From positions 1 to 54,730 of the forward strand of contig NZ_QOVK01000024.1 of NCBI RefSeq assembly GCF_004104075.1: a stretch of DNA of 54,730 nucleotides. Reading direction: 5' to 3'. Positions 18,607 to 47,234 of the stretch are shown here, in pieces. Source of the DNA: Leeuwenhoekiella polynyae. GTDB taxonomy: Bacteria; Bacteroidota; Bacteroidia; Flavobacteriales; Flavobacteriaceae. Both the position numbers and the translations under genes were made by a program. Below the pieces are notes generated by a model. The model had not been told where the DNA came from. It saw only the letters and a program-made list of their open reading frames with translations, and searched no databases. Numbering within the stretch: position 1 is the first letter of the stretch; every line of letters starts with the position of its first letter.

Positions 18607-18609
18607 TAT

Positions 18610-19344: not shown

Positions 19345-19348
19345 AGCT

Positions 19349-20032
19349 TTATATATTTCGTAAATAACCGGTTGTAACAAGTTCTTCCAATTTATTAACT
19401 TGTTTTAAGTTACCATCTTTTAAAACGAGTCTTCGGTCTGCCAGATTCCAGACATCATCATAATAGTGATCGGTAAGCAGAATCCCTTTTGTAGCTTTTA
19501 ATGAAATCAGAAAGTCATGTATCAATTCTTTAAACAAAGGCTCTACCATAGAAAAAGGTTCATCGAGCAGCACGAATGGATGGTTGAGATTCCCAATAAT
19601 TAAAACTTCTAAATAGCGGCGTTGTCCCATTGACAATTCGCTCACTTTTTTACGGGCTATTTCAGTCATTCGCGGAGCTCTGAAAATCAAATCTTGTTGA
19701 TCTCCTTCAAAATATCTGGGAATGATATCCCACACTTTTGATGATTGTGGTAAAAAACTAAACTGGGGCAAATACCCAATCAGTCTGCTAGCAACTATTT
19801 TATTTGTATGCCAGAATTTGCTACGGACTTTAAATAAAGATTCATTGACTTTTATAGTTCCGCTCTGCGCGGTTAAGGTTCCAAACAGGATTTTTAGCAA
19901 GGTACTTTTACCTGTTCCATTTCTTCCAAAAACACCTAAAATCTCTCCCGTTTGTAGTTCAAAACCTGTTTGTCTAAGCACCTCCTTTTCACCAAAAGAT
20001 TTGCTGATATTATGAATTTGTAAGAGCGCCAA
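19349..20032 (-). CDS. ABC transporter ATP-binding protein
   Basis: 227 residues, a complete ATPase domain: Walker [11 protein letters not shown] (about 36-45), Q-loop near [10 protein letters not shown], a signature of the form [12 protein letters not shown], Walker [14 protein letters not shown], and switch His in LLTDHYYDD. No membrane domain is fused to it. Its only membrane partner here is the small upstream protein, which is shorter than a usual ABC permease, so the complete transporter may need a further subunit. It overlaps the upstream gene by 23 bases. The substrate is unknown. Confidence 0.88.
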
Positions 20033-30524: not shown

Positions 30525-33500
30525 ATGAAAAAACTAATTTATGTAATACACCTTACACTATTCCTCCTAAGCTCTATGTTGTTTGCTCAAGATAGAACAC
30601 TTCAGGGTACTGTAACAGACACTAACGGTATGCCCCTACCGGGCGCCAGTATTGTGGTAAAAAATACTACCATAGGAGTAGTGACAGATTTTGATGGAAA
30701 TTTTACAATCAACATTCCTGAAAACGAGAATGTGATTGAGGCAACTTTTATGGGGTTTAAATCGCAGGAGTTAAATGTTACCGGTAAGACTACCCTAACA
30801 ATAGTTCTTGAAGAAGATGCTCAAGGTCTTGATGAAGTTGTAGTAACCGCTCTTGGAATTAAAAGAGAAACCAAAAAACTGTCTTACGCTGTACAAAAAG
30901 TTGATGGTAATGAACTTGCTGAAGCCAAAGAAACTAACGTTATCAACTCACTTTCGGGTAAAATGGCCGGAGTACGGGTTACTGGCGGTAACAGTGGTGT
31001 AGGTTCTAGTTCACAGATCATCATTCGTGGTGAAAATTCATTAAACCCCAGCCCTAATGCAAATTCACCGCTCTTTGTAGTTGACGGAATCCCTATCAAC
31101 AACAACATCAACAATGCAGGTGGAGATGGTAATATGGGGGTTGATTTTGGTAACGGAGCAATGGATATCAACCCTGATGACGTTGCAGAAATGACCGTGC
31201 TTAAAGGTCCTAATGCAACTGCTCTGTATGGTTCTCGAGGTGCAAATGGTGTAGTGCTGATCACAACCAAATCAGGTAAAGGCACTAAAGGTATAGGTGT
31301 TTCTATCAATCACAATACTACTTTTGAAACCCTCTTAACCTTACCAAAATATCAAAATGAATACGGACAAGGATCTAACGGTCAGTTTGCATTTAACGAT
31401 GGAGGTCAAAATCGTTCTGTAACTGGCGGGATTAATGATCATGTTGATGAAAGCTGGGGGCCTGCACTTAACGGGCAATTGATACCACAACACGACAGCC
31501 CTACCACTAGTGGGTTTAGAGCCGGTGATGTAAATCTTCGTCCGCGTAACGCAGACGGAACATTTGCTGATGACATTATCGCTACCCCATTTATTGCACA
31601 TCCTGATAATATTAGAGATTTCTTTGAAACCGGATTTACAATGAGTAATAACGTTGCTCTAACGGGAGCCAATAAAGATGGAAACTTTAGAGTATCATTT
31701 ACAGATTTAAGCAGTGAAAGCATTGTCCCCAACTCTAATTTCAAAAGACGTACCTATGCGATTAACGGGGCTTACAATTTAACAGACTGGTTAAAGGTGA
31801 GCGCTTCGATGAATTATATAAATTCTAACTCAGATAACCGTCCCAATAACTCTTACGGTACCGAAAACGTGATGTACTTATGGATTTGGTTTGGCCGTCA
31901 TATTGATATGAATGGGCTAAGAGATTACTGGCAACCGGGACTTGAAAACTCTCAGCAGTTTAACTACAACTACAATTATCATGACAACCCGTTCTTTACA
32001 GTATATGAAAATACAAACTCCTTTAACCGAGATCGTGTCATTACCAATATGCGTGCAGATCTTCAACTAGCAGATGGGTTAGACTTGATGTTCCGTACAG
32101 GTTTAGATTATTCTAATGAGCTCGATATGCGTAAAAGAGCTTACTCTACACAGCGCTTTCCTAAAGGGCAATATCGGGAAGATTACACCTATGCTCAGGA
32201 GCAGAACACCGACTTCTTATTGTCTTATACTAAAACGCTTACTGAATATTTTGATTTAGGAGTTTCAGTGGGTGCCAATCACAGGGTGGCTAAAAATCGC
32301 TATCAGCGTATGAGTGCAAACTCGCTTTCAATTCCTGCCATCTATAATTTTGGTAATGCTGCAGAACCGCTTACAACGAGCGATTATGACAGTGAGTTCA
32401 GAGTTAATAGTGCGTACGCCTTTGGTAATATCGCTTACAAGAATTATTTATTTTTAGACTTAACCGCTCGTAATGACTGGTCCTCAACGCTTCCGGAAGA
32501 TAACAACAGCTACTTCTATCCTTCGGCAGGTATTAGTGCTATTCTTTCTGATATGTTTGAAATGCCGGAAGCCATCAGTTTTGCTAAACTAAGAGCAGGG
32601 TATGCTGTGGTAGGTAATGATACCAACCCCTACAATCTGGCAGCAACTTATGGTTTTGGAGATACCTTTAATGGATTCTCAAGAGTGTATTCTCCATCAG
32701 AATTGAAAAATTCTGATTTGAAACCTGAAAAAACCAACTCGATAGAATTAGGTGCAGATGTTCGCTTCTTCGGTAATCGTCTGGGACTTGATATTGCGGT
32801 ATATCAATCTACTACCAAAAATCAGATCATATCACTCCCGGTTTCTAATACCTCAGGATTCAGTTCTCGTGTAATTAATGCTGGTGAGGTACAAAACCGA
32901 GGGCTTGAAATCACTTTGAATGCCACTCCTCTACGCACAGATGATTTCCGCTGGAATTCTTCCGTTAATTTTACGATGAACCGCGGGAAGGTTGTAGACC
33001 TTACAGAAGGCTTAGATTTTTATACAATTAAAAACAATTACCTCACCGTGGGTGCTGCTATTGGGGAGCGCATTGGAGATCTGTATGGAACCGGCTTTCA
33101 GAAAGTAAACGATCCTGACAGCGAGTATAACGGGCAGTGGATTATAAACCCTGATTCTGGACTACCTATCGTTGACAACGAATTGAGAAAACTGGGTAAT
33201 TACAGTCCGGATTTTATGGTTGGTTTTCAAAACAGCTTTCAATATAAAAACTTCAACTTCAGCTTTTTGTTTGATTGGAGACAAGGTGGTGAGTTTCATT
33301 CCCGAACCGTTGCCATTGGTGGTACAACCGGTATGTTAGATTTTACTGTTCCCGGTCGCGAAACGGGTATTGTTGCAGCAGGTGTCATTGCAAATGCTGA
33401 TGGGTCCTATACCCAAAATACTCAGAATGTTTCAGCTTCTAATTACTACTCGCACGTATACAACAGAAGTAATGAAGAGAGTTCCATGTTTGACGCTACT

Positions 33501-33740
33501 TACGTAAAATTACGCGAAGTTAAACTGGGGTATAATCTACCTAAAAAATGGTTCGACACGGTTCCCTTCTCTTCAGCTACCATCTCACTAGTAGGAAGAA
33601 ATCTGGCGCTATGGACTGAAAACGACCACGTAGATCCAGAATCTATTTCATTTTCCGGAGGCTCTATTGTTCCTGGTGTAGAAGATATGGCGCTGCCCAG
33701 CACCCGTAGTTTTGGTCTAAACGTTAATCTAGAATTTTAA
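30525..33740 (+). CDS. SusC/RagA family TonB-linked outer-membrane transporter
   Basis: 1071 residues. A signal peptide (to about residue 21, LLSSMLFAQ) is followed by a carboxypeptidase-regulatory-like domain (LQGTVTDTNGMPLPGASIVV, about 26-95), a TonB box region (LDEVVVTALGIKRET), a plug domain (VDGIPINNN, DMAEMTVLKGPNATALYGSR-like) and a 22-strand barrel. It ends in the aromatic barrel terminus LNVNLEF. With SusD it imports large ligands across the outer membrane using TonB energy. Here the downstream genes point to a phosphonate-bearing ligand rather than a plain glycan. It is the first gene of the locus. Confidence 0.95.
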   Translation: MKKLIYVIHLTLFLLSSMLFAQDRTLQGTVTDTNGMPLPGASIVVKNTTIGVVTDFDGNFTINIPENENVIEATFMGFKSQELNVTGKTTLTIVLEEDAQGLDEVVVTALGIKRETKKLSYAVQKVDGNELAEAKETNVINSLSGKMAGVRVTGGNSGVGSSSQIIIRGENSLNPSPNANSPLFVVDGIPINNNINNAGGDGNMGVDFGNGAMDINPDDVAEMTVLKGPNATALYGSRGANGVVLITTKSGKGTKGIGVSINHNTTFETLLTLPKYQNEYGQGSNGQFAFNDGGQNRSVTGGINDHVDESWGPALNGQLIPQHDSPTTSGFRAGDVNLRPRNADGTFADDIIATPFIAHPDNIRDFFETGFTMSNNVALTGANKDGNFRVSFTDLSSESIVPNSNFKRRTYAINGAYNLTDWLKVSASMNYINSNSDNRPNNSYGTENVMYLWIWFGRHIDMNGLRDYWQPGLENSQQFNYNYNYHDNPFFTVYENTNSFNRDRVITNMRADLQLADGLDLMFRTGLDYSNELDMRKRAYSTQRFPKGQYREDYTYAQEQNTDFLLSYTKTLTEYFDLGVSVGANHRVAKNRYQRMSANSLSIPAIYNFGNAAEPLTTSDYDSEFRVNSAYAFGNIAYKNYLFLDLTARNDWSSTLPEDNNSYFYPSAGISAILSDMFEMPEAISFAKLRAGYAVVGNDTNPYNLAATYGFGDTFNGFSRVYSPSELKNSDLKPEKTNSIELGADVRFFGNRLGLDIAVYQSTTKNQIISLPVSNTSGFSSRVINAGEVQNRGLEITLNATPLRTDDFRWNSSVNFTMNRGKVVDLTEGLDFYTIKNNYLTVGAAIGERIGDLYGTGFQKVNDPDSEYNGQWIINPDSGLPIVDNELRKLGNYSPDFMVGFQNSFQYKNFNFSFLFDWRQGGEFHSRTVAIGGTTGMLDFTVPGRETGIVAAGVIANADGSYTQNTQNVSASNYYSHVYNRSNEESSMFDATYVKLREVKLGYNLPKKWFDTVPFSSATISLVGRNLALWTENDHVDPESISFSGGSIVPGVEDMALPSTRSFGLNVNLEF

Positions 33741-33751
33741 GAAAACACACG

Positions 33752-35194
33752 ATGAAAACAAGTAATATAGTTCAGATTCTTGTACTGGCCTGTCTCTTAG
33801 TTACAGGCTGTACCGATAATTTTGAAGAAATCAACTCCAATCCTAATGCTCCTGAAACGGTAAGCGCAAACCTGCTTACCGCTACAGTAACTTCAGAAAT
33901 TACCCGAACACTCACCGAGGAAGGGTATAGCGATGGAAACTCCATCACGCAATTGATGGCTAAAAATAATTTTCCGGGTTTTGCACAATTTGATTGGAGT
34001 GATCAGGGAATGTGGAACTTTTTCTACGGAATTCTTCCGGAAATAGATGATATTCTTCAGATATCACGAAACGAAGAAACCCAGAATAGCACCTATGAAG
34101 GGATGGCACTTACCTTACGCGCACTTTGCTTTGCAAATCTTACCGATCTGTATGGAAACGTTCCGTATTCTGAAGCTCTAGCGGGAGATACAGAGGGTAT
34201 TTTTACGCCAGTTTATGATTCTCAGGAAATGATTTATAATGGGGTTCTTCAGGATTTAGCAGATGCTGATGCTGCTTTGGCTGCAAATCAAAGTATTAGT
34301 GGTACAACAGGAGATGTTATTTATGATGGGGATCCGGCTCGATGGAGAAAATTAGCGAATGCTCTAAGATTGCGCTATCTCTTACGCATCTCCAAACAAC
34401 GCGATGTCTCTCAGGAAATGCAAGCTATTACAAGCGCAGGAAACTACATCAATTCTAACGCAGATAACGCAACACTCACGTACAGCGGAACGTCTAATAC
34501 AGACTCATGGCCACAAAGTACAGGCCGTATAGGCGGTTTTGATGAAAAGAGTTTATGCGATACTGCTTTAGAATACTTCAACACCTTTAACGATCCGAGA
34601 TTAGATATCTGGTTTGACCGTAATAGTGAAGGCAAATGGGTAGGGATGCCTATTGGATTGAATCAGGATAACGCACGAGCTTTTGATGATGCAAACAGTC
34701 CCAGCCGTCTGGATGTAGATCTATTCTATTATTCCAGAACAGGTGCTCAAGCCTATATTATTAAAAATTCTGAGGTACAGTTTATTCTTGCCGAAGCTGC
34801 AGAGCGTGGTATCATTTCAGGTGATGCTGAAGCTTATTACAATGCAGGAGTACGGGCAAGTTTATCGTATTGGGGTGTTGACGATACAACTATAACAGCA
34901 TATCTGGCTCAGCCGGCTGTTTCCTATAACGGATCTTTAGAGCTTTTATTAACCCAAAAAACCATCGCTCTTTGGAATGTAGATTATCAGGGATGGATGA
35001 ATTATAGAAGAACCGGACTTCCAGCTTTACAACCGGGACCAGATACGCTTAACGGAGCACTCTATCCTGTACGCTTCTTGTACCCTTCATCTGAACAAAC
35101 TCTGAATACTACTAACTATCAGAATGCAGTGAGCGCGATGGGTGGAGATAACATCAACGTCAAAGGATGGTGGGAAACCGGAACCCGTTATTAA
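33752..35194 (+). CDS. SusD/RagB family outer-membrane lipoprotein (SusD-like_2 type)
   Basis: 480 residues. The lipoprotein signal ends in LLVTGC (Cys20), and the mature part begins TDNFEEINSNPNAPETV, typical of the SusD-like_2 branch. Helical TPR-like segments follow (ALTLRALCFANLTDLYGNVPYSEAL, then RWRKLANALRLRYLLRISK), and the C-terminus has the usual GWMNYRRTGLPALQPG and YPVRFLYPSSEQ. It is the ligand-capturing lid of the SusC barrel. It begins 11 bases after susC and belongs to the same transcript. SusD-like_2 proteins are not restricted to glycans. Confidence 0.94.
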   Translation: MKTSNIVQILVLACLLVTGCTDNFEEINSNPNAPETVSANLLTATVTSEITRTLTEEGYSDGNSITQLMAKNNFPGFAQFDWSDQGMWNFFYGILPEIDDILQISRNEETQNSTYEGMALTLRALCFANLTDLYGNVPYSEALAGDTEGIFTPVYDSQEMIYNGVLQDLADADAALAANQSISGTTGDVIYDGDPARWRKLANALRLRYLLRISKQRDVSQEMQAITSAGNYINSNADNATLTYSGTSNTDSWPQSTGRIGGFDEKSLCDTALEYFNTFNDPRLDIWFDRNSEGKWVGMPIGLNQDNARAFDDANSPSRLDVDLFYYSRTGAQAYIIKNSEVQFILAEAAERGIISGDAEAYYNAGVRASLSYWGVDDTTITAYLAQPAVSYNGSLELLLTQKTIALWNVDYQGWMNYRRTGLPALQPGPDTLNGALYPVRFLYPSSEQTLNTTNYQNAVSAMGGDNINVKGWWETGTRY

Positions 35195-35262
35195 TTATTA
35201 AAATCTTAAATCAAGTTGGGTTGCTCATAAATCTGGGCAACCTCAACTTGTTTATGTGTACT

Positions 35263-36930
35263 ATGAGACAATATTATTTTTATAAAAGCCTTAAACTAAG
35301 TTTGCTGTTAGCAACAGTATTTTTGGTTTCATGTACTCCCAACAAAAAAGCAGATCTGGGAATTAAACATATCATTGTTATAGGAGTCGATGGAATGAGT
35401 CCGGACGGAATTAACAACGCTCAGACCCCGGTTATTGACAGTATGGTAAAATACGGAGCATCTACTTTTGAAGCACGTGCAGTGCTTCCTTCAAGTTCTA
35501 GTTCTAACTGGGCCAGTATGATTATGGGTGCAGATACTGAGCAACATGGCATCACTTCTAACGGGTGGGAAGCTAACAACCACACCTTGCCGGCTGTAGT
35601 TTCAGCGCACGACAGTAGATTCCCTTCTATTTTCACTTTATTTCATGATCAAAAACCAGAAGCTCACGTAGGTACTATTTACGATTGGGATGGTTTTGGC
35701 AGATTGTATAATCCTGAAGATGTTGCTTTTGATATCAACGGAGGCCACGAAGATGGCACCACACAGGATGCGATTACTTACATCAAAGATCATAAACCCA
35801 ACTTTACCTTTATTCATCTGGATCACGTTGACCATGCAGGGCATAGCGAAGGACACGGGACTGAATCCTATTACCAAGCCGTTGAAAAAGCAGACCATTT
35901 AATAGGATCTATTATAGCATCCACGAAAGAAGCTGGAATTTTTGATCAAACGGTATTCATCATATCAGCTGACCACGGTGGCTTAGGCAAAGGACACGGT
36001 GGTGAATCCCTGAATGAAGTCAACATTCCATTCATACTATATGGAGCCGGAGTAAAAAACGGATATACGATTGAAGAAACCGTATATCAGTACGATAATG
36101 CAGCCACTGTTGCCTTTGTCGCCGGTTTAGAAACTCCACAAGCATGGATAGGGAGACCTGTTAAAAGTGCTTTTGTAGGATATGAAAAACCGGTATTGCG
36201 CTATAAAAAACAGAAGCAACTCCTCGCTCCTGTTTTACTTCCTAAAAATGGACCGTATGCTCCTTCCGGTGGATTATTCACAACGTCTAATATTGAAGTT
36301 AAACTAAAAAACCTCAACACAACAGGAAGTATTTATTATACCCTGGATGGTTCTGATCCTTCTGAAAAAAATGGATTAGAATATACCGCTCCGTTTACAG
36401 TAGACCGTACCACACTGGTACGTGCCATAGTTACTAAAGCAGGGAAAGCTTCTAGCACAATTTCCGCAGGTAGTTATCGATTGATTTCCACCCAAAAGAA
36501 ACCCGGTGTTTTATTCCGTATTTATCCCTTAGAAAATCTGACTTCCTTACCGGACTTTAGAAACCTCAAAGCATCACAAACCGGAAATAGTATGGAGTTT
36601 GAAAGCGGCATCCTTGACAGTCTGGACTCCGCAGCAAGTACCGCTATAGTTTTCAATTCTGTATTAAAAATAGATACAAGCGGCAGCTATACTTTTTATA
36701 CCAACAGTGATGATGGCAGCAAACTTTATATTGATGAAAAACTAGTAGTTGACAATGATGGGGATCATGGCGTACAGGAGCGCAGCGGCACTATAAATCT
36801 AAAAACAGGTGCACATCCTATTAAAATTGAATATTTTAACGGTGGCGGGGGTTACTATCTGGATGCGCAATACAAAGGACCGGGTATTGGCAAACAAATT
36901 ATTCCGGCAGGTAAATTGAATCTGAACTAG
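35263..36930 (+). CDS. Exported phosphodiesterase with CHB_HEX-like and PA14-like modules
   Basis: About 555 residues from the ATG at 35263; ATG at 35254 is an alternative. A lipoprotein signal ends in TVFLVSC. The alkaline-phosphatase/nucleotide-pyrophosphatase domain shows IIVIGVDGMSPDGI (metal Asp), a Ser-rich nucleophile region LPSSSSSNWASMIMG, HLDHVDHAGHSEGHG and SADHGGLGKGHGG. A chitobiase C-terminal-like module follows (ASYTLDG-type SIYYTLDGSDPSEKNG), then a PA14-like domain (GSYTFYTNSDDGSKLYIDEK). It should cleave phosphate or phosphonate esters at the cell surface, the last modules binding sugar. The substrate is an inference. Confidence 0.85.
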   Translation: MRQYYFYKSLKLSLLLATVFLVSCTPNKKADLGIKHIIVIGVDGMSPDGINNAQTPVIDSMVKYGASTFEARAVLPSSSSSNWASMIMGADTEQHGITSNGWEANNHTLPAVVSAHDSRFPSIFTLFHDQKPEAHVGTIYDWDGFGRLYNPEDVAFDINGGHEDGTTQDAITYIKDHKPNFTFIHLDHVDHAGHSEGHGTESYYQAVEKADHLIGSIIASTKEAGIFDQTVFIISADHGGLGKGHGGESLNEVNIPFILYGAGVKNGYTIEETVYQYDNAATVAFVAGLETPQAWIGRPVKSAFVGYEKPVLRYKKQKQLLAPVLLPKNGPYAPSGGLFTTSNIEVKLKNLNTTGSIYYTLDGSDPSEKNGLEYTAPFTVDRTTLVRAIVTKAGKASSTISAGSYRLISTQKKPGVLFRIYPLENLTSLPDFRNLKASQTGNSMEFESGILDSLDSAASTAIVFNSVLKIDTSGSYTFYTNSDDGSKLYIDEKLVVDNDGDHGVQERSGTINLKTGAHPIKIEYFNGGGGYYLDAQYKGPGIGKQIIPAGKLNLN

Positions 36931-36939
36931 ACGTGCACT

Positions 36940-38295
36940 ATGGAGCATAAACTTTCTACAAATGAACTCCTTGTTGAAGGAGATATCAACCGGTCTGAAG
37001 GTCGAAAAAAATGGTTAGCAGAAGAAGTTGGTGCTACGACAAAAAAACTTTTAGAAAAAGACGCGCAGTACTTTTTACACCAGGCACTATCTACCCCTTG
37101 TATGGACGTACTGGCCGATGCTCAGGGTCCGTTTATCACCAACACTTCAGGTAAAAACTATTTTGATTTTCACGGAAATAATGTACACCAACTGGGTTTT
37201 TCACATCCTAAACTCATTGAAGCACTCAAAAATCAGTTAGACCAACTTACCTTTTCTACCCGAAGATACACCAACGAAACGGCTATTCATTTTGCCGAAA
37301 AACTAACAAGCCTTACTCCCGGTTTAGATAAAATACTGATGACGCCTAACGGAAGTTCTGCAATTGGGATCGCGCTTAAACTGTCTCGCGCAGTAACCGG
37401 CAAGTATAAAGTAGTGTCCTTCTGGGATTCGTTTCACGGCGCATCGCTCGATGTGGTGAGTGTTAGCGGTGAATCGGTTTTTAGAGAACACATGGGACCT
37501 TTGATGCCCGGTGTAGAACGTATTCCCCCTCCCATTACCTATCGTGGCATTTATGAGAATAACGAAGATAAAGCAATCGAATATCTGGAGTACATTTTGG
37601 CAAAAGACAATCAGATTGGAGCCTTTTTAGCAGAAACCGTGCGCAATACTGATGCTCAAATTCCGTCTAAAAAATTCTGGAAAGCAGCCCGAGCACTTTG
37701 TGATCAATACGGGGTTCTGCTGATTCTTGATGAGATCCCAATCGCATTAGGCCGAACCGGAAAACTATTTGCTTACGAACATTTTGACATTATACCAGAC
37801 ATTCTTTGTTTAGGTAAAGGACTTGGAGGTGGTATTATTCCTCAGGCAGCGATCGTTACTAAAAAGGAATACGACCGGTTTAACCACATTTCACTGGGGC
37901 ATTATACCTTTGAAAAAAGTCCTGTGGGTGCAGCTGCAGCGCTAACAACATTGCAAATTATTGAAGAAGAACATCTGCTGGAGCACGTCGTTTACTTAGA
38001 AGGTATGATGCAGGCTACCCTGAATGATTTCCTGCATAAATACAACATCATTGGCGATATTAGAGGTCTTGGTTTACTCTGGGGTATAGAACTCGTAAAA
38101 GATCGCATAACTAAAGAAAAAGCTACCGCTGAAGCAGAAGCGATTATGTATGAATGTCTCAAAAACGGACTGAGTTTTAAAGTCTCTAAAGGCAATGTTT
38201 TACAACTCTGCCCGGCACTCACCATAAAAACCACGCAGCTTGCAGAAGCTCTGGCTATTTTAGAAAACGCACTACAAAAAATCTCAAAACCATAA
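36940..38295 (+). CDS. pbfA: PLP-dependent enzyme resembling (R)-1-hydroxy-2-aminoethylphosphonate ammonia-lyase
   Basis: 451 residues of the class III aminotransferase fold. PLP Lys293 lies in LCLGKGLGGGIIP, Asp264 in LILDEIPIALGRTGK, and the phosphate-binding loop is TPNGSSAIG (about 135-143). The segments TRRYTNETAIHFAEKL and FWDSFHGASLDVVSVSGES fit the PbfA group, which eliminates ammonia from (R)-1-hydroxy-2-aminoethylphosphonate to give phosphonoacetaldehyde. A plain transaminase is the alternative. It has no signal peptide and acts in the cytoplasm, yet lies among exported phosphatases. The nearby PhnX-like hydrolase would use its product, which supports this assignment. Confidence 0.66.
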   Translation: MEHKLSTNELLVEGDINRSEGRKKWLAEEVGATTKKLLEKDAQYFLHQALSTPCMDVLADAQGPFITNTSGKNYFDFHGNNVHQLGFSHPKLIEALKNQLDQLTFSTRRYTNETAIHFAEKLTSLTPGLDKILMTPNGSSAIGIALKLSRAVTGKYKVVSFWDSFHGASLDVVSVSGESVFREHMGPLMPGVERIPPPITYRGIYENNEDKAIEYLEYILAKDNQIGAFLAETVRNTDAQIPSKKFWKAARALCDQYGVLLILDEIPIALGRTGKLFAYEHFDIIPDILCLGKGLGGGIIPQAAIVTKKEYDRFNHISLGHYTFEKSPVGAAAALTTLQIIEEEHLLEHVVYLEGMMQATLNDFLHKYNIIGDIRGLGLLWGIELVKDRITKEKATAEAEAIMYECLKNGLSFKVSKGNVLQLCPALTIKTTQLAEALAILENALQKISKP

Positions 38296-38300
38296 AAACA

Positions 38301-39884
38301 ATGAAACACATCATAGTTCTTAGCTTGTTTATTATCAGTTTTTGCATCCATACGCAGGCCCAACAAAATAGCTTTCTGGTACACCCTTATTTACAAGATG
38401 CAGAGCCCACATCAATACGTATAAAATGGGAAACCGAGTTTGAGGGAGAAAGCACTGTAGAATGGGGCTTGACAGCAAAATTGGGGAACAAAATTACAGG
38501 TACCTCCTGTAAAGTGAATTTTGGAGAATCGCGCTTACATGAAGTTCAGCTTACCGGTTTAGAGCGCTTCACCACCTATTTTTACCGAGTTAAAACCGGA
38601 AAACTTCGATCTGACATTCTTCAGTTTAAAACCCCTCCATTTTCTGGAGAAGCAGCCTCTTTTAACCTGATAGCTATGAGCGATATGCAAATAGACCGCA
38701 GTCAGCCAGATAAATTCAGTGAAGTCGTCAATGAAGGTATTCTCAACTATCTGGAGCAGCAATTTGACGGAAAAGTTCCAGACAATTTAGCTTTGGTAAT
38801 GATTCCCGGAGATCTTGTGGCTCAAGGAAGTAATTATGAGCAATGGCAAACCGATTTCTTCAAACCTTCAGCAAAACTTTTCTCACAAGTTCCTGTATAT
38901 CCCGTCCCCGGAAATCACGAACAAAACTCTCAATTTTTCTTCAAATACTTCAGCCTGCCCGAAAACGGAGACCCTGCTTATGCGGAGCACTGGTGGTACA
39001 AAGATTATGGTAACGTTCGTATTATTGGATTAGATTCTAATGAAGGATATCGCGATATGCGACAACAATATGAATGGCTTGAACGGGTATTGAAAGACAC
39101 CGAAACTGAAGAAGACATTGATTTTGTTTTTGCTCAGCTCCATCATCCGTATAAGTCAGAATTATGGATTCCGGGGGAAGAGGAAACCACCGGAAAAGTG
39201 GTTAAGATGCTTGAAGCTTTTTCAGATAAAACCGGTAAACCCAGCGTTCATTTTTTTGGTCATACACACGGATATTCCCGCGGACAATCACGCGACCACA
39301 ATCACTTGTGGGTAAATGTTGCTTCGGCAGGAGGTTCTATTGACAACTGGGGAGAATTTGAAGGTCGCGATTATGATGAATTTACCGTTACCCAAGATGA
39401 ATATGGTTTTGTGATGGTAAATGTAGATCCCAATCCTGCAGATCCTAAGATCAGTCTCAAACGCATCAGCCGCGGTAATGTTCAACATCCAAAAAACAAT
39501 GCGGTAACTGATAGTATCACCGTTTATAAACTGAATCAAAAGCCCGATGCACCTGTTGGGATTTCACCTAAAAAAGAAAATGTAGACATCACTGCTATCA
39601 CGCTAAAAGCGTCTGCCTTTAGCGGAGGAAGAGTTTCGAGTAAACATACCGCTTCGCACTGGCAAGTGTCTACAACACCCGATTTTGAAAAATTGGTTAA
39701 AGACAGTTGGAAACAACATGAAAATTGGTATTACAAAGAAAACAGACAAAAGGGTGATGACCTTACAGATGAAGAGTTATCCCGCTTACAACCCGCAACC
39801 ACCTACTACTGGCGGGTTCGGTATCGGGATCAATATCTGGGATGGAGCGAGTGGTCTGAAACCCTGACTTTTAAAACTAAATAA
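38301..39884 (+). CDS. Exported purple-acid-phosphatase-like metallophosphoesterase
   Basis: 527 residues with a signal peptide ending in HTQAQ. A PAP N-terminal Fn3-like domain (about 25-115, SIRIKWETEFEGESTVEWG) precedes a calcineurin-like core: MSDMQIDRS, MIPGDLVAQG, VPGNHEQNS, FAQLHHPYKS, FFGHTHGYSR. The first motif has Gln in place of the usual His (DMQ). A C-terminal Fn3-like domain (ATTYYWRVRYRDQYLGWSEW) follows. It starts five bases after the PLP gene and should hydrolyse phosphomonoesters or diesters in the periplasm. Its exact substrate is unknown. Confidence 0.86.
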   Translation: MKHIIVLSLFIISFCIHTQAQQNSFLVHPYLQDAEPTSIRIKWETEFEGESTVEWGLTAKLGNKITGTSCKVNFGESRLHEVQLTGLERFTTYFYRVKTGKLRSDILQFKTPPFSGEAASFNLIAMSDMQIDRSQPDKFSEVVNEGILNYLEQQFDGKVPDNLALVMIPGDLVAQGSNYEQWQTDFFKPSAKLFSQVPVYPVPGNHEQNSQFFFKYFSLPENGDPAYAEHWWYKDYGNVRIIGLDSNEGYRDMRQQYEWLERVLKDTETEEDIDFVFAQLHHPYKSELWIPGEEETTGKVVKMLEAFSDKTGKPSVHFFGHTHGYSRGQSRDHNHLWVNVASAGGSIDNWGEFEGRDYDEFTVTQDEYGFVMVNVDPNPADPKISLKRISRGNVQHPKNNAVTDSITVYKLNQKPDAPVGISPKKENVDITAITLKASAFSGGRVSSKHTASHWQVSTTPDFEKLVKDSWKQHENWYYKENRQKGDDLTDEELSRLQPATTYYWRVRYRDQYLGWSEWSETLTFKTK

Positions 39885-39894
39885 AGATTTCGAT

Positions 39895-40938
39895 ATGCAT
39901 AGTAGAAAAGTAATAGTACTGCTCCTTCTGGCTGGCTTGAGTGTTTTTAAAATACAAGCTCAAAACAAAGAAGATCAAAAAGTCATTTTGATCACATTAG
40001 ACGGCTTTCGCTGGCAAGAACTGTTTACCGGTGCCGATCCTAAACTCATTAGCAACCCTGAATATGTTCATGATACCACAGCTTTAAAGTCCAAATTCTG
40101 GCGGGAAACTAAAGCTGAACGCCGAGAAGCCTTGTTACCTTTTATTTGGAATAAGGTAGTCCATCACGGGGAAATTCACGGAAATAGAGAAGCTGGAAGC
40201 AAGGTTAACCTGACCAACACGATGTGGTTTTCTTATCCCGGATATAACGAGATCCTTACGGGTAAAGCAGATGATAAAAACATCAGGAGTAATGATAAGA
40301 TCTATAACCCTAATGTAACCATCCTGGAAGAATTAAATAATACTTCAAAATACAAAGGCAAGGTTGCTGCCTTTACCAGTTGGGACGTTTTTCCATATAT
40401 TATTAATGATAAACGCAGTAGTATTCCTGTAAATGCAGCTTTCGATCCGGCTAAAGATACGCCTTTATCAGACCGGGAAATCTTCCTTAATAAATTACAA
40501 AAAGAGATACCGAGTCCGTGGGGAAGTGTACGCCTGGATGCGTTTACTCACAATTATGCCTTGGAGTATATGCAAAAAAATCATCCAAGTCTGGTTTATA
40601 TAGCCTACGGCGAAACAGACGATTTTGCACACGATGGTGAATATGATGCCTATTTGAATTCGGCACACACGACAGATGCAATGCTGAAAGAGGTTTGGGA
40701 ATATGTTCAGACCGATGCATTCTATAAAGATCAAACTACCCTGATCATCACTACAGATCACGGGCGTGGAACGGAACCTCTAGAAACCTGGAAAAGTCAC
40801 GGAAGCGATATCAAAGGTGCAGATCAGACCTGGCTCATAATTCTCGGAGCCGGTGCTGATCAAAAAGGAGCTATTCAAAACGAAGAACAGATCTATACTA
40901 CCGAAGTTGTAAAACACATCAAGCAAAATTTAAATTAG
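39895..40938 (+). CDS. Exported alkaline-phosphatase-superfamily phosphoesterase
   Basis: 347 residues with a signal peptide (to about IQAQ). Motifs: KVILITLDGFRWQELFTG (metal Asp), NTMWFSYPGYNEILTG (nucleophile region), YIAYGETDDFAHDGEY (second metal set) and LIITTDHGRGTEP (Asp-His). The spacing fits phosphoglyceromutase/nucleotide pyrophosphatase-type enzymes of Bacteroidota. Phosphonate monoester hydrolases also belong to this superfamily. It starts 11 bases after the PAP-like gene. A 150-base gap follows, with a further -7 box at 41003-41010, so the first transcript probably ends or is restarted here. Confidence 0.82.
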   Translation: MHSRKVIVLLLLAGLSVFKIQAQNKEDQKVILITLDGFRWQELFTGADPKLISNPEYVHDTTALKSKFWRETKAERREALLPFIWNKVVHHGEIHGNREAGSKVNLTNTMWFSYPGYNEILTGKADDKNIRSNDKIYNPNVTILEELNNTSKYKGKVAAFTSWDVFPYIINDKRSSIPVNAAFDPAKDTPLSDREIFLNKLQKEIPSPWGSVRLDAFTHNYALEYMQKNHPSLVYIAYGETDDFAHDGEYDAYLNSAHTTDAMLKEVWEYVQTDAFYKDQTTLIITTDHGRGTEPLETWKSHGSDIKGADQTWLIILGAGADQKGAIQNEEQIYTTEVVKHIKQNLN

Positions 40939-41038
40939 TTTACAAATAAGAAATAAAATAAAACATTAAAGCTTTTTGTTTTAATATAAGTAAACTTTAT
41001 AATAAATTTGTTACCGCTTGTTTGTTTATATTTTAAAC

Positions 41039-41072
41039 TCCGGTCGGGGTTATTCTTAAACTTTTGACCGGA
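41039..41072 (+). promoter_or_regulatory. Inverted repeat in the DUF5690 leader
   Basis: TCCGGTC (41039-41045) and GACCGGA (41066-41072) form a 7-bp inverted repeat with a 20-base centre. It lies between a -7-like box TAAATTTG (41003-41010) and the DUF5690 start codon. The XRE-cupin regulator of the same locus is a candidate binder. No second copy was seen. Confidence 0.35.
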
Positions 41073-41087
41073 TTATTAAAACCTACT

Positions 41088-42365
41088 ATGCCCATCAAAA
41101 AACAAGATCTTGCATTTATTAGTCGTGCTTCTCTGGCTGCATTTGGTGCGTATTTCTGTATGTATGCATTTAGAAAACCTTTTGCAGTTGCAACTTTTGA
41201 ACATCTAAGTGTTCTGGGAATCGATTATAAAATCCTGCTCATTATCGCTCAGGTTTTGGGTTATATGCTCTCCAAATTTATTGGGATCAAAGTAATTTCT
41301 GAATTAAAGTCAAAGCAACGCCTCACCTATTTGTTAGCTCTCATCGGTATTTCTGAAATTGCGCTCCTCCTTTTTGGTTTTGTTCCGCAGCCCTATAATA
41401 TTTTATTCATGTTTCTCAATGGTCTGCCTTTGGGAATGATCTGGGGCATTGTGTTTTCCTACTTGGAAGGGCGAAAATTCACCGAAATACTAGGAGTCAT
41501 TTTATGCACCAGTTTTATTGTTTCAAGCGGAGTGGTAAAATCTATTGGTTTATATGTTATGGTATCCTGGGAAGTTTCCCAGTTTTGGATGCCTGCAGTA
41601 ACCGGAGCTTTATTTCTCATCCCTTTAGTGTTTTTTGCCAGGCTTTTAGAAACGATCTCCCCTCCTACACCTGAAGACGAGTCCTTACGCGTTGCCCGCG
41701 TCCCTATGGATAAAACAGCACGTAAAGAAGTGCTCAAGCAATTTGCATTGCCTCTTTTTATTCTGATCCTATTCTACGTTAGTTTGACTGCTTTTAGAGA
41801 CCTCAGGGATAATTACGCCCGGGAGCTCTGGGATAGTCTGGGTTATGCCGGGGATATTGCGGTATACAGTACCTCTGAACTGGCTGTAGCGCTTCTCGTT
41901 TTGATTATTCTGGCCTCTGTCTATGCGATAAAAGATAACCTCAAAGCCTTGCTCACCTATCACGGTATATTACTAATCGGTACGTTTTCGGTAGGTATCG
42001 CAACATTTTTATTACAGTCTGAAATACTCGATCCGTTTTACTGGATGGTGATCTCCGGTTTTGGTTTGTACATCTGCTATGTCCCGTTTAACGCGTTGTT
42101 TTTTGACCGATTTATCGCTGCATTCCGCATCAAAGGCAATGCCGGTTTTTTAATTTATCTCGCAGATGCTTTCGGATATATGGGAAGTATGGGCGTTTTG
42201 CTTTATAAAAACTTCGGGATGGATGAAATATCCTGGTTACAATTTTTTATCAACGGCGCCTATCTCCTTTCCGCACTGGGAACATGTAGCGTCATCGTTT
42301 CTTATTTCTATTTAAAAAACAAACACCGCAACGCCAATCTCAACGTTCTAACTTATGAAAACTAA
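41088..42365 (+). CDS. DUF5690 family MFS transporter, candidate phosphonate importer
   Basis: 425 residues from the ATG at 41088; the TTG upstream at 41064 adds a non-conserved stretch. About 12 transmembrane helices. The first helix reads AAFGAYFCMYAFRKPFAVATF, reminiscent of the motif of organophosphate:phosphate antiporters (Tyr-x-x-Arg-Lys), followed by IAQVLGYMLSKFIGIKV and NGLPLGMIWGIVFSYLEGR. It overlaps the FAD oxidoreductase gene by 11 bases and sits among phosphonate genes, so import of an aminoethylphosphonate-type compound across the inner membrane is likely. The transport function itself has not been shown by the sequence. Confidence 0.8.
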   Translation: MPIKKQDLAFISRASLAAFGAYFCMYAFRKPFAVATFEHLSVLGIDYKILLIIAQVLGYMLSKFIGIKVISELKSKQRLTYLLALIGISEIALLLFGFVPQPYNILFMFLNGLPLGMIWGIVFSYLEGRKFTEILGVILCTSFIVSSGVVKSIGLYVMVSWEVSQFWMPAVTGALFLIPLVFFARLLETISPPTPEDESLRVARVPMDKTARKEVLKQFALPLFILILFYVSLTAFRDLRDNYARELWDSLGYAGDIAVYSTSELAVALLVLIILASVYAIKDNLKALLTYHGILLIGTFSVGIATFLLQSEILDPFYWMVISGFGLYICYVPFNALFFDRFIAAFRIKGNAGFLIYLADAFGYMGSMGVLLYKNFGMDEISWLQFFINGAYLLSALGTCSVIVSYFYLKNKHRNANLNVLTYEN

Positions 42366-43509
42366 ATACGATCTACTTATCGTAGGCGGAGGTGTTCTGG
42401 GTACCTTTCACGCTTATCACGCATTAAACAGAGGTTTACGCGTAGCAATTCTTGAACAAAGCGCAATGCCACAAGGCGCAACTACACGTAATTTTGGTCA
42501 GGTCGTACCTTCGGGTATGAATACTAAATGGCAAAATTATGGTCGGGAAAGTCTGCGTATCTATAAGGAAATTCAGGAGCTTTTTGATATTACGATTCGT
42601 CAAAATGGATCTGTATATCTAGCTTCTAATACCGAAGAATTGCAACTTATTGAAGAACTGGCGGTGATCAATAAAACGAATAACTATACTTCTAAGCTAC
42701 TCACCAAAGCAGAATGTTTAAAAAAGTATCCCGGTTTACGAGCAGATTATGTCAAAGCAGGCTTGTTTTTTCCTGATGAAGTTACGGTAGAGCCGCGCAC
42801 GATGATTCACCGCTTACAGCAATTTCTGGTGACTCAAAAAAAACTGGATTTATTTACAAATACGAAAGCCATACACATTGATCAAAGCACTGACGAAGTT
42901 GCGATCACCACTGCTACTGGAAATACTTTTAAAGCTGCTCACGCATTAATTTGTAACGGAAGTGATTTTAAAACACTTTACCCACAGCTTTTTGCAGCTA
43001 GTGACTTGCAGCTCTCTAAATTGCAAATGCTACAAACTAAACCTCAGCAAAATTATAAACTTCCCGGTTCTATTTTAACCGGCTTGTCTATCCGTCGTTA
43101 CGAAGCCTTTTATGAATGTCCCTCATTTAAAGAAATAAAAGATAAAGAAGATGCAGCTAGTTTAGAGAAAAAATGGGGCGTGCATATTCTGTTTAAACAA
43201 GCTGCAGATGGTTCTGTTATTTTAGGGGATTCCCATGAATATGCTGATGCTGATCGTATGGAAGATTTAGGGTATGGCCTGAATATGGATATAGACAATT
43301 TTATGATCGCTGAAGCCCAAAAAATCATTGACCTGCCTACTTATGATATTCAGGATCGCTGGTATGGGATTTACTCGCAATGTAAGACACAAGATATTTT
43401 TTTAAAAACCTTAGGAGAGCGCATTCACATCGCCACCGGAATTGGAGGAAAAGGAATGACCGGAAGCGCAGGATTCTCAAAAGAACACCTTAATACAATA
43501 CTTAATTAA
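42355..43509 (+). CDS. TIGR03364-type FAD-dependent oxidoreductase
   Basis: 384 residues of the D-amino-acid-oxidase superfamily. The FAD motif is LLIVGGGVLGTFHAYHAL (residues 8-25), followed by TTRNFGQVVPSG, and a C-terminal IATGIGGKGMTGSAGFSKEH. This branch recurs beside phosphonatase-like hydrolases, and its members have been linked to oxidation of 2-aminoethylphosphonate or its N-methyl derivative to phosphonoacetaldehyde. That would make a phnW-type transaminase unnecessary, and none is seen here. It is overlapped by DUF5690 and followed by the HAD gene after six bases. Confidence 0.82.
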   Translation: MKTKYDLLIVGGGVLGTFHAYHALNRGLRVAILEQSAMPQGATTRNFGQVVPSGMNTKWQNYGRESLRIYKEIQELFDITIRQNGSVYLASNTEELQLIEELAVINKTNNYTSKLLTKAECLKKYPGLRADYVKAGLFFPDEVTVEPRTMIHRLQQFLVTQKKLDLFTNTKAIHIDQSTDEVAITTATGNTFKAAHALICNGSDFKTLYPQLFAASDLQLSKLQMLQTKPQQNYKLPGSILTGLSIRRYEAFYECPSFKEIKDKEDAASLEKKWGVHILFKQAADGSVILGDSHEYADADRMEDLGYGLNMDIDNFMIAEAQKIIDLPTYDIQDRWYGIYSQCKTQDIFLKTLGERIHIATGIGGKGMTGSAGFSKEHLNTILN

Positions 43510-43515
43510 TACCGT

Positions 43516-44199
43516 ATGAATACTATAAAATTGGTCGTTTTTGATATGGCGGGCACCACCGTAAATGAAAATAATATTGTGTACAAAACCGTACAGAAAG
43601 TCATTAACGACTTAGGTTATCAGGTAAGCCTTGATGCTGTTTTAGAGTTTGGTGCCGGGAAAGAAAAGCATCAGGCGATTACCGATGTTTTACAAAACTG
43701 CACCCATTCTACTGCTGTACAAGAAGAAGCAGCAACTGCTTTTGCAGCCTTCAAACCCGAATTAGAAGTCGCTTATGACACCCAATCAATTGGCACCTTT
43801 GAAGGCATGCTCGCTTTCTTTAAGAGACTAAAAGAGGATACTATTAAAGTGGTTCTCAATACCGGTTATGATTCTAAAACGGCAACAAAATTACTGGCAA
43901 AATTAGAGTGGCATGTAGGTGAGGAAATAGATATGCTCATCACAGCTGATGCTGTTGAAAATGGAAGACCGGCCCCTGATATGATACACAAAGCCATGCA
44001 GCAGTTTGGGATTACCGATCCTTCTCAGGTGCTCAAAGCAGGAGATTCTCAAATAGATATCATAGAAGGTAAAAATGCCAAGTGTGGCTTAACCATAGGT
44101 GTTTTAAGCGGAGCACAAACTAAAGAACAATTAGAAGCTGCAAAGCCAGATTACATTCTTAAGGTAATAACTGAGCTTGAAGGCATATTATTGAACTAA
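43516..44199 (+). CDS. Phosphonatase-like HAD hydrolase (TIGR03351 type)
   Basis: 227 residues, shorter than classical PhnX (about 265). HAD motif I is LVVFDMAGTTVNENN, with Asp10 as nucleophile. The PhnX Schiff-base lysine appears to be retained: EFGAGKEKHQAI aligns with the MGxxKxxHxxA region and gives Lys49. Motifs II to IV are KVVLNTGYDSKT and LKAGDSQIDIIEGKNAKCG. It should cleave phosphonoacetaldehyde to acetaldehyde and phosphate. Loss of length falls mainly in the cap region. It is the last gene of this transcript and ends 27 bases from the convergent regulator. Confidence 0.85.
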   Translation: MNTIKLVVFDMAGTTVNENNIVYKTVQKVINDLGYQVSLDAVLEFGAGKEKHQAITDVLQNCTHSTAVQEEAATAFAAFKPELEVAYDTQSIGTFEGMLAFFKRLKEDTIKVVLNTGYDSKTATKLLAKLEWHVGEEIDMLITADAVENGRPAPDMIHKAMQQFGITDPSQVLKAGDSQIDIIEGKNAKCGLTIGVLSGAQTKEQLEAAKPDYILKVITELEGILLN

Positions 44200-44214
44200 T
44201 CTGCTTTTAAAATG

Positions 44215-44237
44215 TTGAAAGCACGCTTAGCTTTCAA
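44215..44237. terminator. Hairpin between the HAD hydrolase and the XRE-cupin gene
   Basis: An 8-bp stem TTGAAAGC / GCTTTCAA (44215-44222 with 44230-44237) with a 7-base loop; the regulator stop codon lies in it. A/T-rich but imperfect T-runs follow, so it is a moderate bidirectional terminator candidate. Confidence 0.55.
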
Positions 44238-44808
44238 TATCTTTTAAATAAAAATAAAGAACAAGCATAGCAGTAGGGACCTCACGGCGGTTGATAGGTA
44301 CATGTGGAATTCTCCCGTCGAAAAATATGGAGTCCCCTTCGTGCAAAGTCACTTCCTCATCACCAATGTTGTAAACACAACTTCCAGAGAGCATATACTT
44401 AAATTCATACGCATCGGTTTCTACTTTACTGCGTTCAGAGCCGGGTTGAATTTCAAGTAAAACCGCTTCAAAAGCTATTGAAGCAAGAGATTTGCCAAAA
44501 ATAGATTTATACTGAAAACCTTTAGCATCATCTTCTTTTTCTAGTATGGAATGTTCTGCTTTGCGAGAAACAATAAATGAAGTTTTTCCGCTTTGCGGAA
44601 GACTATTAAAAAAAGCAGCCACTTCGATCTCTAAAGCATTGATGATATTTAACAATACCGGCAACGATGGTATTGTCCTTCCGTTTTCTATACGCGAAAT
44701 GAGTCCGTTACTTACATCTGCTTGGGTTGCAACCGTACTAATGGTAAATCCTTTATCTTTTCTGATTTCTCGAATGCGCTTCCCGATTCCAATTATGTAG
44801 TCTTCCAA
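44227..44808 (-). CDS. XRE-family regulator with C-terminal cupin domain
   Basis: 193 residues. An N-terminal HTH_3 domain (IGKRIREIRKDKGFTISTVA, then ADVSNGLISRIENGRTIPSLPVLLNI) is followed by a cupin (EPGSERSKVET-type QPGSERSKVETDAYEFKYML, then EEVTLHEGDSIFFDGRIPH). This architecture is common for regulators that sense a small metabolite. It converges on the phosphonate catabolic genes and is the only dedicated regulator near them, so control of the locus is likely. The ligand could be an aminophosphonate or aldehyde; this is an inference. Confidence 0.87.
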   Translation of the reverse strand: MEDYIIGIGKRIREIRKDKGFTISTVATQADVSNGLISRIENGRTIPSLPVLLNIINALEIEVAAFFNSLPQSGKTSFIVSRKAEHSILEKEDDAKGFQYKSIFGKSLASIAFEAVLLEIQPGSERSKVETDAYEFKYMLSGSCVYNIGDEEVTLHEGDSIFFDGRIPHVPINRREVPTAMLVLYFYLKDIES

Positions 44809-46370: not shown

Positions 46371-46703
46371 ATGGGATTAACCAAGTCAGAAATATTTACC
46401 GCTCAACAAAACACAATAGCGACGTTTGCTAAAGTTTTGGGTCATCCTGCACGGGTTGCCATTCTAGAGCATTTGTATAAGATCAAGTCGTGTGTTTGTG
46501 GGGATCTTGTGGATGAGATAGGTCTCGCTCAACCCACCATTTCTCAGCATTTGAAAGAATTGAAACAAGTTGGTCTTATAAAAGGAACTATAGAAGGTAC
46601 CCGTGTTTGCTATTGTATTGATGATGACAAATGGATCACTATGAAAGCAGTGATACATGAATTTCTCGATCAAGACTTAACTAAAAATCAAGAGTGCTGC
46701 TAA
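46371..46703 (+). CDS. arsR: ArsR-family metalloregulator
   Basis: 110 residues with a winged HTH: TFAKVLGHPARVAILEHLYK, then CVCGDLVDEIGLAQPTISQHLKEL. The CVC pair sits at the position of the ELCVCDL sensor of classical ArsR, and a further Cys pair ends the protein (NQECC). It should release DNA on binding As(III). It begins an operon with DUF6428 and an arsenate reductase. Confidence 0.9.
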   Translation: MGLTKSEIFTAQQNTIATFAKVLGHPARVAILEHLYKIKSCVCGDLVDEIGLAQPTISQHLKELKQVGLIKGTIEGTRVCYCIDDDKWITMKAVIHEFLDQDLTKNQECC

Positions 46704-46716
46704 AAAATTTGCAGTG

Positions 46717-46738
46717 ATTAATCGTAATATAACAATAA
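46717..46738 (+). promoter_or_regulatory. ArsR operator-like element 2
   Basis: A near-copy of 46339-46360 (ATTAATCGTAATAT shared, then AA instead of TG, then CAATAA), lying between arsR and the DUF6428 gene. It implies a second ArsR-controlled promoter. Confidence 0.5.
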
Positions 46739-46750
46739 AACCTCGTGACT

Positions 46751-47218
46751 ATGAAACTTGCAGAAGTAAAAAATCACCTCAATAATTTAAAAACAATTTC
46801 CTTTCAATTACCTGATGGCGAACGCGTACCGGGTCATTTTCACGTTACTGAAGTGGGTAAAGTATCCAAACACTTTATAGATTGTGGGGGTGTTATTCGG
46901 AAAGAAGAAGTGGTAAACTTTCAATTATGGAATGCTGATGATTACGATCACAGATTGCATCCTGAGAAACTGATCCAAATCATTAAACTTTCTGAAGACA
47001 AATTAAATATTGATGAAGAGCTAACGGTTGAAGTAGAATATCAAGGTCGCAGCATCGAGACATTCACGCTTGATTTTGACGGTTCTAACTTCTTACTGGT
47101 AAACAAACAAACCGATTGTTTAGCAAAAGATCAATGCGGTGTTCCTGCTGAAAAGCCTAAAGTAAAAATGGCTGACCTAACTACTACTACTTGCACTCCC
47201 GGTGGGGGCTGTTGTTAA
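46751..47218 (+). CDS. DUF6428 family protein with Cys-rich tail
   Basis: 155 residues from the ATG at 46751; a GTG two codons upstream is possible. The core (PDGERVPGHFHVTEVGKVSK, then NFQLWNADDYDHRLHPEKLI) fits DUF6428, a family found in flavobacterial arsenic operons. The C-terminus TTTTCTPGGGCC and the pair of Cys in TDCLAKDQCG could bind metalloid. It lies between arsR and the reductase. The function is unknown; arsenic carrier or chaperone is a fair guess. Confidence 0.82.
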   Translation: MKLAEVKNHLNNLKTISFQLPDGERVPGHFHVTEVGKVSKHFIDCGGVIRKEEVVNFQLWNADDYDHRLHPEKLIQIIKLSEDKLNIDEELTVEVEYQGRSIETFTLDFDGSNFLLVNKQTDCLAKDQCGVPAEKPKVKMADLTTTTCTPGGGCC

Positions 47219-47234
47219 TCTTCAACTATAAAAA

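Follow-up and report, generated by a model that had tools for sequence, protein, structure and literature searches.

A conserved flavobacterial locus joins a SusCD importer and exported phosphoesterases to predicted aminophosphonate catabolism

Why does a SusC/SusD importer lie beside enzymes predicted to break carbon-phosphorus (C-P) bonds, and what might it bring in? The question is raised by a ten-gene locus of Leeuwenhoekiella polynyae, at positions 30525-44808 of the window, the whole 54,730-nucleotide stretch analyzed here (contig NZ_QOVK01000024.1 of assembly GCF_004104075.1). A sequence-only reading had described it as SusCD-coupled phosphonate utilization. The locus is real, conserved, and functionally coherent, and because dozens of genomes repeat its gene order and gene content it is more than a chance assembly; SusC is linked to pbfA, the gene for a pyridoxal phosphate (PLP) enzyme, beyond chance. 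Judged by family and catalytic residues, aminophosphonate catabolism is very probably its function. With less assurance, we favor substrate-regulated organophosphorus utilization, in which esterified 2-aminoethylphosphonate (AEP), N-methyl-AEP, or hydroxy-AEP would be captured, the ester cleaved outside, and the product hydrolyzed via phosphonoacetaldehyde.

Gene content and phosphonate enzymes

All ten genes of the short-gapped run described earlier are present and were assigned to families by profile. Nine are on the forward strand and one, xre, is on the reverse strand, convergent with had.

30525..33740, + strand: susC, TonB-dependent transporter, 1071 aa (TIGR04056, 687.7 bits versus a cut-off of 368.25)
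33752..35194, + strand: susD, surface lipoprotein (SusD-like_2), 480 aa (PF12771, 327.8 bits; best solved SusD homolog 3ejn, 154.3 bits)
35167..36930, + strand: npp, exported alkaline phosphatase (AP)-superfamily phosphodiesterase, probable lipoprotein (PF01663, PF13290, PF07691; CHB_HEX_C_1/Fn3_assoc, PA14)
36940..38295, + strand: pbfA, PLP enzyme (NF049939, 691.7 versus 525)
38301..39884, + strand: pap, exported purple-acid-phosphatase (PAP)-type metallophosphoesterase, 527 aa (PF16656, PF00149)
39895..40938, + strand: ap2, small exported enzyme of the alkaline-phosphatase superfamily, 347 aa (PF01676 [Metalloenzyme], PF01663)
41064..42365, + strand: DUF5690 inner-membrane protein, proposed aminophosphonate transporter (PF18943, 554.9; MFS fold)
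42355..43509, + strand: fad, TIGR03364 FAD-dependent oxidoreductase, PbfD-type (439.6 bits versus 285.1)
43516..44199, + strand: had, PhnX-like phosphonatase (TIGR03351, 223.3 versus 218.9; DxAGT and cap lysine K49)
44227..44808, - strand: xre, XRE-cupin regulator (HTH_3 and Cupin_2)

Neighboring open reading frames (ORFs) are separated by -28 to +125 bp, or by 149 bp ahead of DUF5690 if that gene starts at its first ATG, 41088, as is likely; the true start of npp is probably internal to the ORF as called, near 35263.

The models for PbfA, TIGR03364, and TIGR03351 all score above their curated cut-offs in the window, TIGR03351 narrowly. The PbfA shares 96% identity with its L. aestuarii counterpart and 54-55% with those of four gammaproteobacterial loci (L110, L115, L119, and L121); the PbfA neighbors in L110 and L121, the two scanned, pass TIGR01422. 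From its family assignment, PbfA is predicted to act on R-hydroxy-AEP. A phospho-lyase identity was considered and rejected, as many other aminotransferases score above the solved phospho-lyase 6tor, which reaches just 154.3 bits. The FAD enzyme had been read as oxidizing AEP; its family stands, and since the assayed TIGR03364 enzyme, A. baumannii PbfD1, is described in the available text as preferring N-methyl-AEP (PMC10590968), AEP oxidation may be the weaker activity. PhnW was sought in the window genome at an E value of 1e-30, without a match.

The HAD protein carries D10, A12, G13, and T14 (DxAGT) as well as K49, which lines up with a lysine in solved phosphonatases and also in the HAD proteins from L110, L115, L119, and L121; we take this lysine to be the Schiff-base residue of phosphonatases. 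It is phosphonatase-like, as claimed earlier, by TIGR03351 and the cap lysine, but not a true PhnX, with 105.6 bits against a TIGR01422 cut-off of 220. Across 67 aligned HADs the cap position holds lysine in 52 and tyrosine in 15. The replacement, with DxAGT kept, was noted for HADs of Dyadobacter loci; the L112 HAD is an example, and it falls under the TIGR03351 cut-off (196.1 versus 218.9).

Conservation of the locus

Two collections describe how widely this arrangement occurs. The 80 named loci (among those given L numbers) are the best 80 of a larger number of PbfA matches, are biased toward close kin, and were assigned to clades by hand; the 10-kb flank taken around PbfA truncates part of some, and in L104 opposite-strand ORFs were picked over pbfA and HAD. 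The other collection consists of 397 evenly drawn Flavobacteriaceae genomes (G numbers), 27 of which have PbfA at a BLAST threshold of E 1e-130. Two more, G180 and G339, hold pbfA by NF049939 while lying under that threshold, and after a rescan of 13 genomes with this model the gene is present in at least 29 of 397.

SusCD coupling is conserved by both measures, in the kind of gene-order comparison across the family that the earlier reading had suggested as a check. Both susC and susD lie in the stretch in 41 of 47 Flavobacteriia loci and share a same-strand run with pbfA in 38; NPP is found in 44 of these loci, PAP in 40, AP2 in 35, FAD and XRE in 38 each, HAD in 37, and DUF5690 in 21. The locus of L. 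blandensis MED217 (L044) is one example. In 23 of the 27 genomes a SusC is found no more than 10 kb from pbfA, compared with 4.3 expected from the 20-77 SusC signatures per genome; G121, which is among the 23, has a nearby pair of another type, going with a PhoA-GDPD_2-like protein.

Outside the Flavobacteriia the importer is mostly missing. Sixteen Dyadobacter loci contain NPP (15), FAD (16), DUF5690 (16), and HAD (15), with susC and susD together in only two. The four gammaproteobacterial loci have phnX-type neighbors and no SusCD, and susC with susD is found in none of 13 other Bacteroidota loci. These 13 (L088-L118; Chitinophagaceae and other Bacteroidota) have PbfA-family genes with almost no phosphonate neighbors, some beside housekeeping genes; an NPP-like gene occurs in L107 only and a distant SusC-like gene in L111.

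Among the 397 genomes HAD is present in 29, eight of which lack pbfA, and the two genes occur together in 19 (21 after the NF049939 correction). Seven genomes have pbfA with PhnA and none has HAD with PhnA. Computed on the 27 pbfA genomes with kinship ignored, Fisher tests show pbfA to occur with HAD (2.9e-19) and with PhnA (1.0e-7) more often than expected by chance. A C-P lyase as an additional route was rejected, with PhnJ in none of the 27.

A second, PhnA-type route

PhnA is found in nine of the 397 genomes, never with HAD, and seven of the eight pbfA genomes lacking HAD (of the 27) have it. The Kriegella aquimaris locus (L083) shows the arrangement most fully: SusC-SusD, a Laminin_G_3 protein, one opposite-strand gene, a short NPP, PbfA, PhnA (474.1 versus 407.55), PhnY (642.3 versus 635.65), a PhnW-type aminotransferase, and a GlpT-family MFS transporter. 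PhnA-PhnY-PhnW-MFS here replaces FAD-HAD, and PbfA-PhnA-PhnY-PhnW form a single run (L083:9995-15208) in a member of the Bacteroidota. This makes Kriegella an exception to a statement, in the text of PMC12366243 available to us, that the pbfA-phnY-phnA combination is confined to Proteobacteria.

PhnA-PhnY-PhnW genes also adjoin SusCD in G018, G240, G328, G377, G162, and G314, and thus, with Kriegella, in seven of the nine PhnA genomes; G212 has a TRAP-type transporter (named by eye) in place of SusCD, and in G006 SusCD is several genes off. PhnW was searched with TIGR02326, whose cut-off of 400.8 no match reached; seven genomes score 335-352 bits, and the Kriegella protein, one of these seven, passes TIGR03301 (406.8 versus 360.8). 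Weaker matches (153-163 bits) in G189, G377, G217, and G018 were left out. The protein after SusD has Laminin_G_3 in all three PhnA-type loci scanned. XRE-cupin homologs, 32-38% identical, lie in the PhnA-type cluster of seven of the nine genomes, and such homologs occur in both kinds of phosphonate cluster. The Kriegella stretch showed none, and neither did G328, whose analyzed sequence ends there. We note that the AepP-like MFS gene of G212 reads as two separate ORFs (L160:8668-9645).

DUF5690 as a candidate transporter

DUF5690 exceeds its cut-off in 32 of the 397 genomes, including all 29 with HAD, at 1.2-3.0 kb from it (matches under the cut-off in G311 and G361 were left out). The remaining three, G129, G162, and G212, all have pbfA and PhnA; DUF5690 is at the pbfA locus in G212 and on another contig in G129 and G162. 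Its structure model (predicted local distance difference test [pLDDT] score, 89.9) has an MFS fold, with human G6PT at Foldseek ranks 1-7 and E. coli GlpT at rank 47; the matches also include the other MFS families sialin and GLUT. G6PT is an organophosphate:phosphate antiporter. DUF5690 is predicted, and in our view likely, to be the aminophosphonate transporter of the HAD route. No paper on DUF5690 was found in the literature search, which did not extend to preprints and most subscription journals. A second DUF5690 subfamily occurs in L171 (12187-16309), L178, and L179. Its neighbors there are a short NPP-like gene, a further XRE-cupin gene, and a gene for an HpnZ-like alcohol dehydrogenase (320.3 versus a cut-off of 328.1 in L171).

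Exported phosphoesterases

Read by eye, the N termini of all three phosphoesterases are of the lipoprotein or signal-peptide kind. In an alignment of 40 NPPs, residues D43, S79, N82, D190, H194, D237, and H238 (numbered from 35263) are invariant. The window NPP matches Xac NPP at the nucleophile position (Ser replacing Thr) and at five further acidic or histidine positions, which are presumably catalytically relevant in Xac NPP. Sulfatases and NPPs match its structure model (pLDDT 88) about equally, and hence its substrate is not readable from the fold. The solved phosphonate monoester hydrolase 4upk matches at 32 bits over about 100 residues, and identity with the phosphonoacetate hydrolase PhnA was rejected (TIGR02335, 23.9 versus 407.55).

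Further exported proteins accompany related loci. An exported 423-aa protein with an HxHxDH motif (by eye) lies between NPP and PbfA in L067 (8704-9972), scoring 19 against the Pfam metallo-beta-lactamase (MBL) cut-off of 22.7; it is in 27 of 47 flavobacterial loci and absent from the window and L042-L044. In the same locus (17925-19733) a PhoA fused to GDPD_2 (scanned in L067) has its own SusC and adjoins the phosphonate cluster, and similar genes occur in L052, L175, and several G loci. This PhoA-GDPD_2 with its SusC resembles PUSII as described in part of PMC8115612, and beside the phosphonate cluster it is a P-acquisition island.

The SusCD importer and the locus flanks

The importer varies while the enzymes stay, as SusD proteins from this place fall in several clades. 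A tree of 62 SusD sequences, with a weak backbone, one duplicate and one long outlier omitted, and paralogs limited to the best-matching ones of six genomes, requires eight label changes for 33 locus rows, six of them forced by well-supported branches; each label change could represent either gain or loss. All 33, with six PhnA-linked rows and 10 others, lie on one weakly supported side (55/86). The two Dyadobacter SusD proteins cluster (100/100) with the PhnA-adjacent SusD of G018 and G377 and with an additional SusD from Kriegella. Clearly different SusCD pairs, as judged from these sequences, hold one place beside the same enzymes, through exchange or old divergence. We read this variety as one headgroup presented on different carriers; phages that use SusC could also have driven the change. 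In L078 only a SusD remnant is present (9238-9624), with DUF5690, FAD, HAD, PbfA, and PAP kept and no SusC or NPP found.

The flanks of the window locus are unrelated to it: a recQ-type helicase, fmt, YqgE/AlgH, a class-IV aminotransferase, and tRNA-Met upstream, and ArsR, DUF6428, and an RND efflux set downstream. At 46371-47864, ahead of the efflux set, the ArsR regulator and DUF6428 are accompanied by a protein that is weakly arsenate-reductase-like (37.4 versus a cut-off of 215).

Proposed function and alternatives

We propose that SusCD would bind and import a molecule bearing an ester-linked aminophosphonate and that the NPP-type lipoprotein, with PAP and AP2, would release the phosphonate, perhaps also the isosteric phosphoethanolamine, outside the cytoplasm, with DUF5690 moving the free aminophosphonate over the inner membrane. 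In the cytoplasm PbfA is predicted to convert R-hydroxy-AEP, and the FAD enzyme N-methyl-AEP and AEP, to phosphonoacetaldehyde, which the PhnX-like HAD would split into acetaldehyde and phosphate, all as assigned by family and catalytic residues; the XRE-cupin protein may sense a pathway intermediate. The earlier claim that two routes meet at phosphonoacetaldehyde agrees with the curated families, the cap lysine, and the replacement of FAD-HAD by PhnA-PhnY-PhnW elsewhere.

The ligand is a harder question. Chances are about even that the substrate is ester bound rather than free; NPP is as constant across loci as the C-P enzymes, and its PA14 and CHB_HEX_C_1 domains also speak for an esterified ligand, as do the Laminin_G_3 domain in the three scanned PhnA-type loci and the ethanolamine-route genes described below. 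Natural phosphonates are often part of glycans and lipids (PMC8316502, in part). Glycans and glycolipids of invertebrates are known to bear AEP, methyl-AEP, and phosphoethanolamine: mollusc glycolipids combine AEP with phosphoethanolamine, and the glycans of a marine snail combine AEP with methyl-AEP (PMC6994554, in part); shellfish sphingolipids contain methyl-AEP (PMC10590968, in part). On the other side, the locus has no carbohydrate-active enzyme (CAZyme) and Dyadobacter loci mostly lack susC with susD, so that the ligand named earlier, a phosphonoglycan or phosphonolipid fragment, is a candidate. A glycan rather than a lipid carrier is a tentative choice that we lean against. We would be similarly hesitant to regard the Flavobacteriia loci as a class dedicated to zwitterionic phosphonoglycans or phosphonolipids, with a carrier-recognizing SusCD (which would explain why the pair varies while its position does not), an NPP-type phosphonate-ester hydrolase stripping AEP, methyl-AEP, and phosphoethanolamine, DUF5690 as a new transporter, and an FAD-HAD or PhnW-PhnY-PhnA end.

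Several findings weigh against the capture of esterified aminophosphonates by this route. A domain scan of the ten locus proteins found no glycoside hydrolase or lyase domain, the CAZyme component of a classical polysaccharide utilization locus (PUL). Of the 16 Dyadobacter loci, 14 lack susC with susD, and in the separate case of the G217 locus a SusD remnant is all that is left of the pair. The nearest enzymes to NPP act on phosphate esters or sulfates, and its cleavage of phosphonate esters would go beyond what sequence and fold show. The HAD margin over TIGR03351 is only 4.4 bits. Caulobacter vibrioides, one of 14 control genomes, exceeds the DUF5690 cut-off, and a profile comparison of DUF5690 with the AepP-like set was not significant (probability 0.64%, P 0.089). 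The genome counts are not independent, because the genomes are related.

In a rival arrangement, free aminophosphonates would be the substrate and SusCD and the phosphoesterases would scavenge phosphate esters in general, sharing a P-acquisition island with the catabolic operon. SusCD-phosphoesterase loci are described for phosphodiester scavenging in the available text of PMC8115612, a PhoA-GDPD_2-like protein (one member scanned) with its own SusC adjoins the cluster in several genomes, and the 14 Dyadobacter loci manage without the pair. But 38 of 47 flavobacterial loci have SusCD and pbfA in one same-strand run with NPP between them, NPP is kept in 15 of 16 Dyadobacter loci although SusCD is mostly missing, and PhnA clusters adjoin SusCD too (seven of nine genomes); we consider this arrangement rather unlikely. 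Wholesale over-annotation, with the PLP, FAD, and HAD proteins acting on unrelated amines and phosphates, could draw on the small HAD margin and on the 13 other Bacteroidota PbfA-family loci with almost none of these neighbors (the NPP-like gene of L107 and the distant SusC-like gene of L111 aside), but three independent families, HAD/PhnA exclusivity, and the cap lysine make it very improbable.

Phosphoethanolamine esters could instead be the substrate, with NPP releasing phosphoethanolamine and the class-III PLP enzyme serving as an ethanolamine-phosphate phospho-lyase; phospho-lyases are placed in the same PLP class in part of PMC8154272. Ethanolamine-route genes adjoin related genes in three genomes: AP2-PAP-MBL-NPP in G377, where the permease scores 348.2 against a cut-off of 381.75, AP2 in G328 (about 28 kb away from pbfA), and DUF5690-FAD-HAD in G050, the genes of the latter two being judged by eye. 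The PbfA model score (691.7 versus 525), the low 6tor match (154.3 bits, below many aminotransferases), and the lack of any place for the FAD and PhnX-like enzymes in such a pathway make this improbable. Ethanolamine-permease-like, glutamine-synthetase-like, alcohol dehydrogenase, and aldehyde dehydrogenase genes lie next to related genes in L157 (447-6825; profiled), L154, and L172.

With the proposed capture of esterified aminophosphonates, this marine bacterium would use phosphonates that larger molecules still carry, not only free ones. The enzyme papers, in their available text, assay free aminophosphonates; a SusCD-coupled locus, if the proposal is true, would let a single organism take phosphonate from its bound form all the way to phosphate. 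DUF5690 would then gain a function, a candidate phosphonate-ester hydrolase family would be named, and a gene marker for bound-phosphonate turnover in marine Bacteroidota would become available.

Comparison with known systems

Adjacent susC and susD, as in PULs and in the PUS (PusCD) loci of Flavobacterium, and three exported phosphoesterases co-located with them (export judged by eye), as in PUS loci, are present here; SusCD with phosphomonoesterases and phosphodiesterases is the shared feature in the text of Lidbury et al. available to us (PMC8115612). That text covers phosphodiester scavenging and contains no phosphonate route, ligand, or gene list, and gives ECF sigma/FecR regulators for PUSI-III where the window locus has XRE-cupin. 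One phrase in its section 19 places PusCD beside phosphonate-degrading enzymes; this was the only joining of the two found in the literature search, again outside preprints and most subscription journals, and none was found in the available text of PMC7029141, PMC8812569, PMC10752948, PMC9426549, PMC10100682, or PMC11892949. Extension of the PUL idea to organophosphorus, as first proposed, is therefore borne out as a coupling but is not wholly new.

The FAD enzyme is in the same NCBIfam family as the assayed PbfD1 (PMC10590968, in part), and the text on PbfD there has no word starting with bacteroid, flavobact, or tonb. AepP, described in part of PMC8316502, is a tested AEP permease and GlpT relative reported from Kriegella. 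At the level of the organism this corresponds to the GlpT-family MFS in the transporter place of our Kriegella locus, whereas DUF5690 is a separate family that profile comparison does not link significantly to the AepP-like set. With the phnW-pbfA-phnX and phnW-pbfA-phnY-phnA operons, as far as the text of PMC8154272 extends, the window locus has in common PbfA and hydrolysis via phosphonoacetaldehyde, and it differs in being without PhnW and in having a PhnX-like HAD, an FAD oxidase, SusCD, and exported esterases. The same cluster, minus AP2, is carried by a Flavobacterium sp. (locus L058), a likeness to the Flavobacterium hosts of PUS loci.

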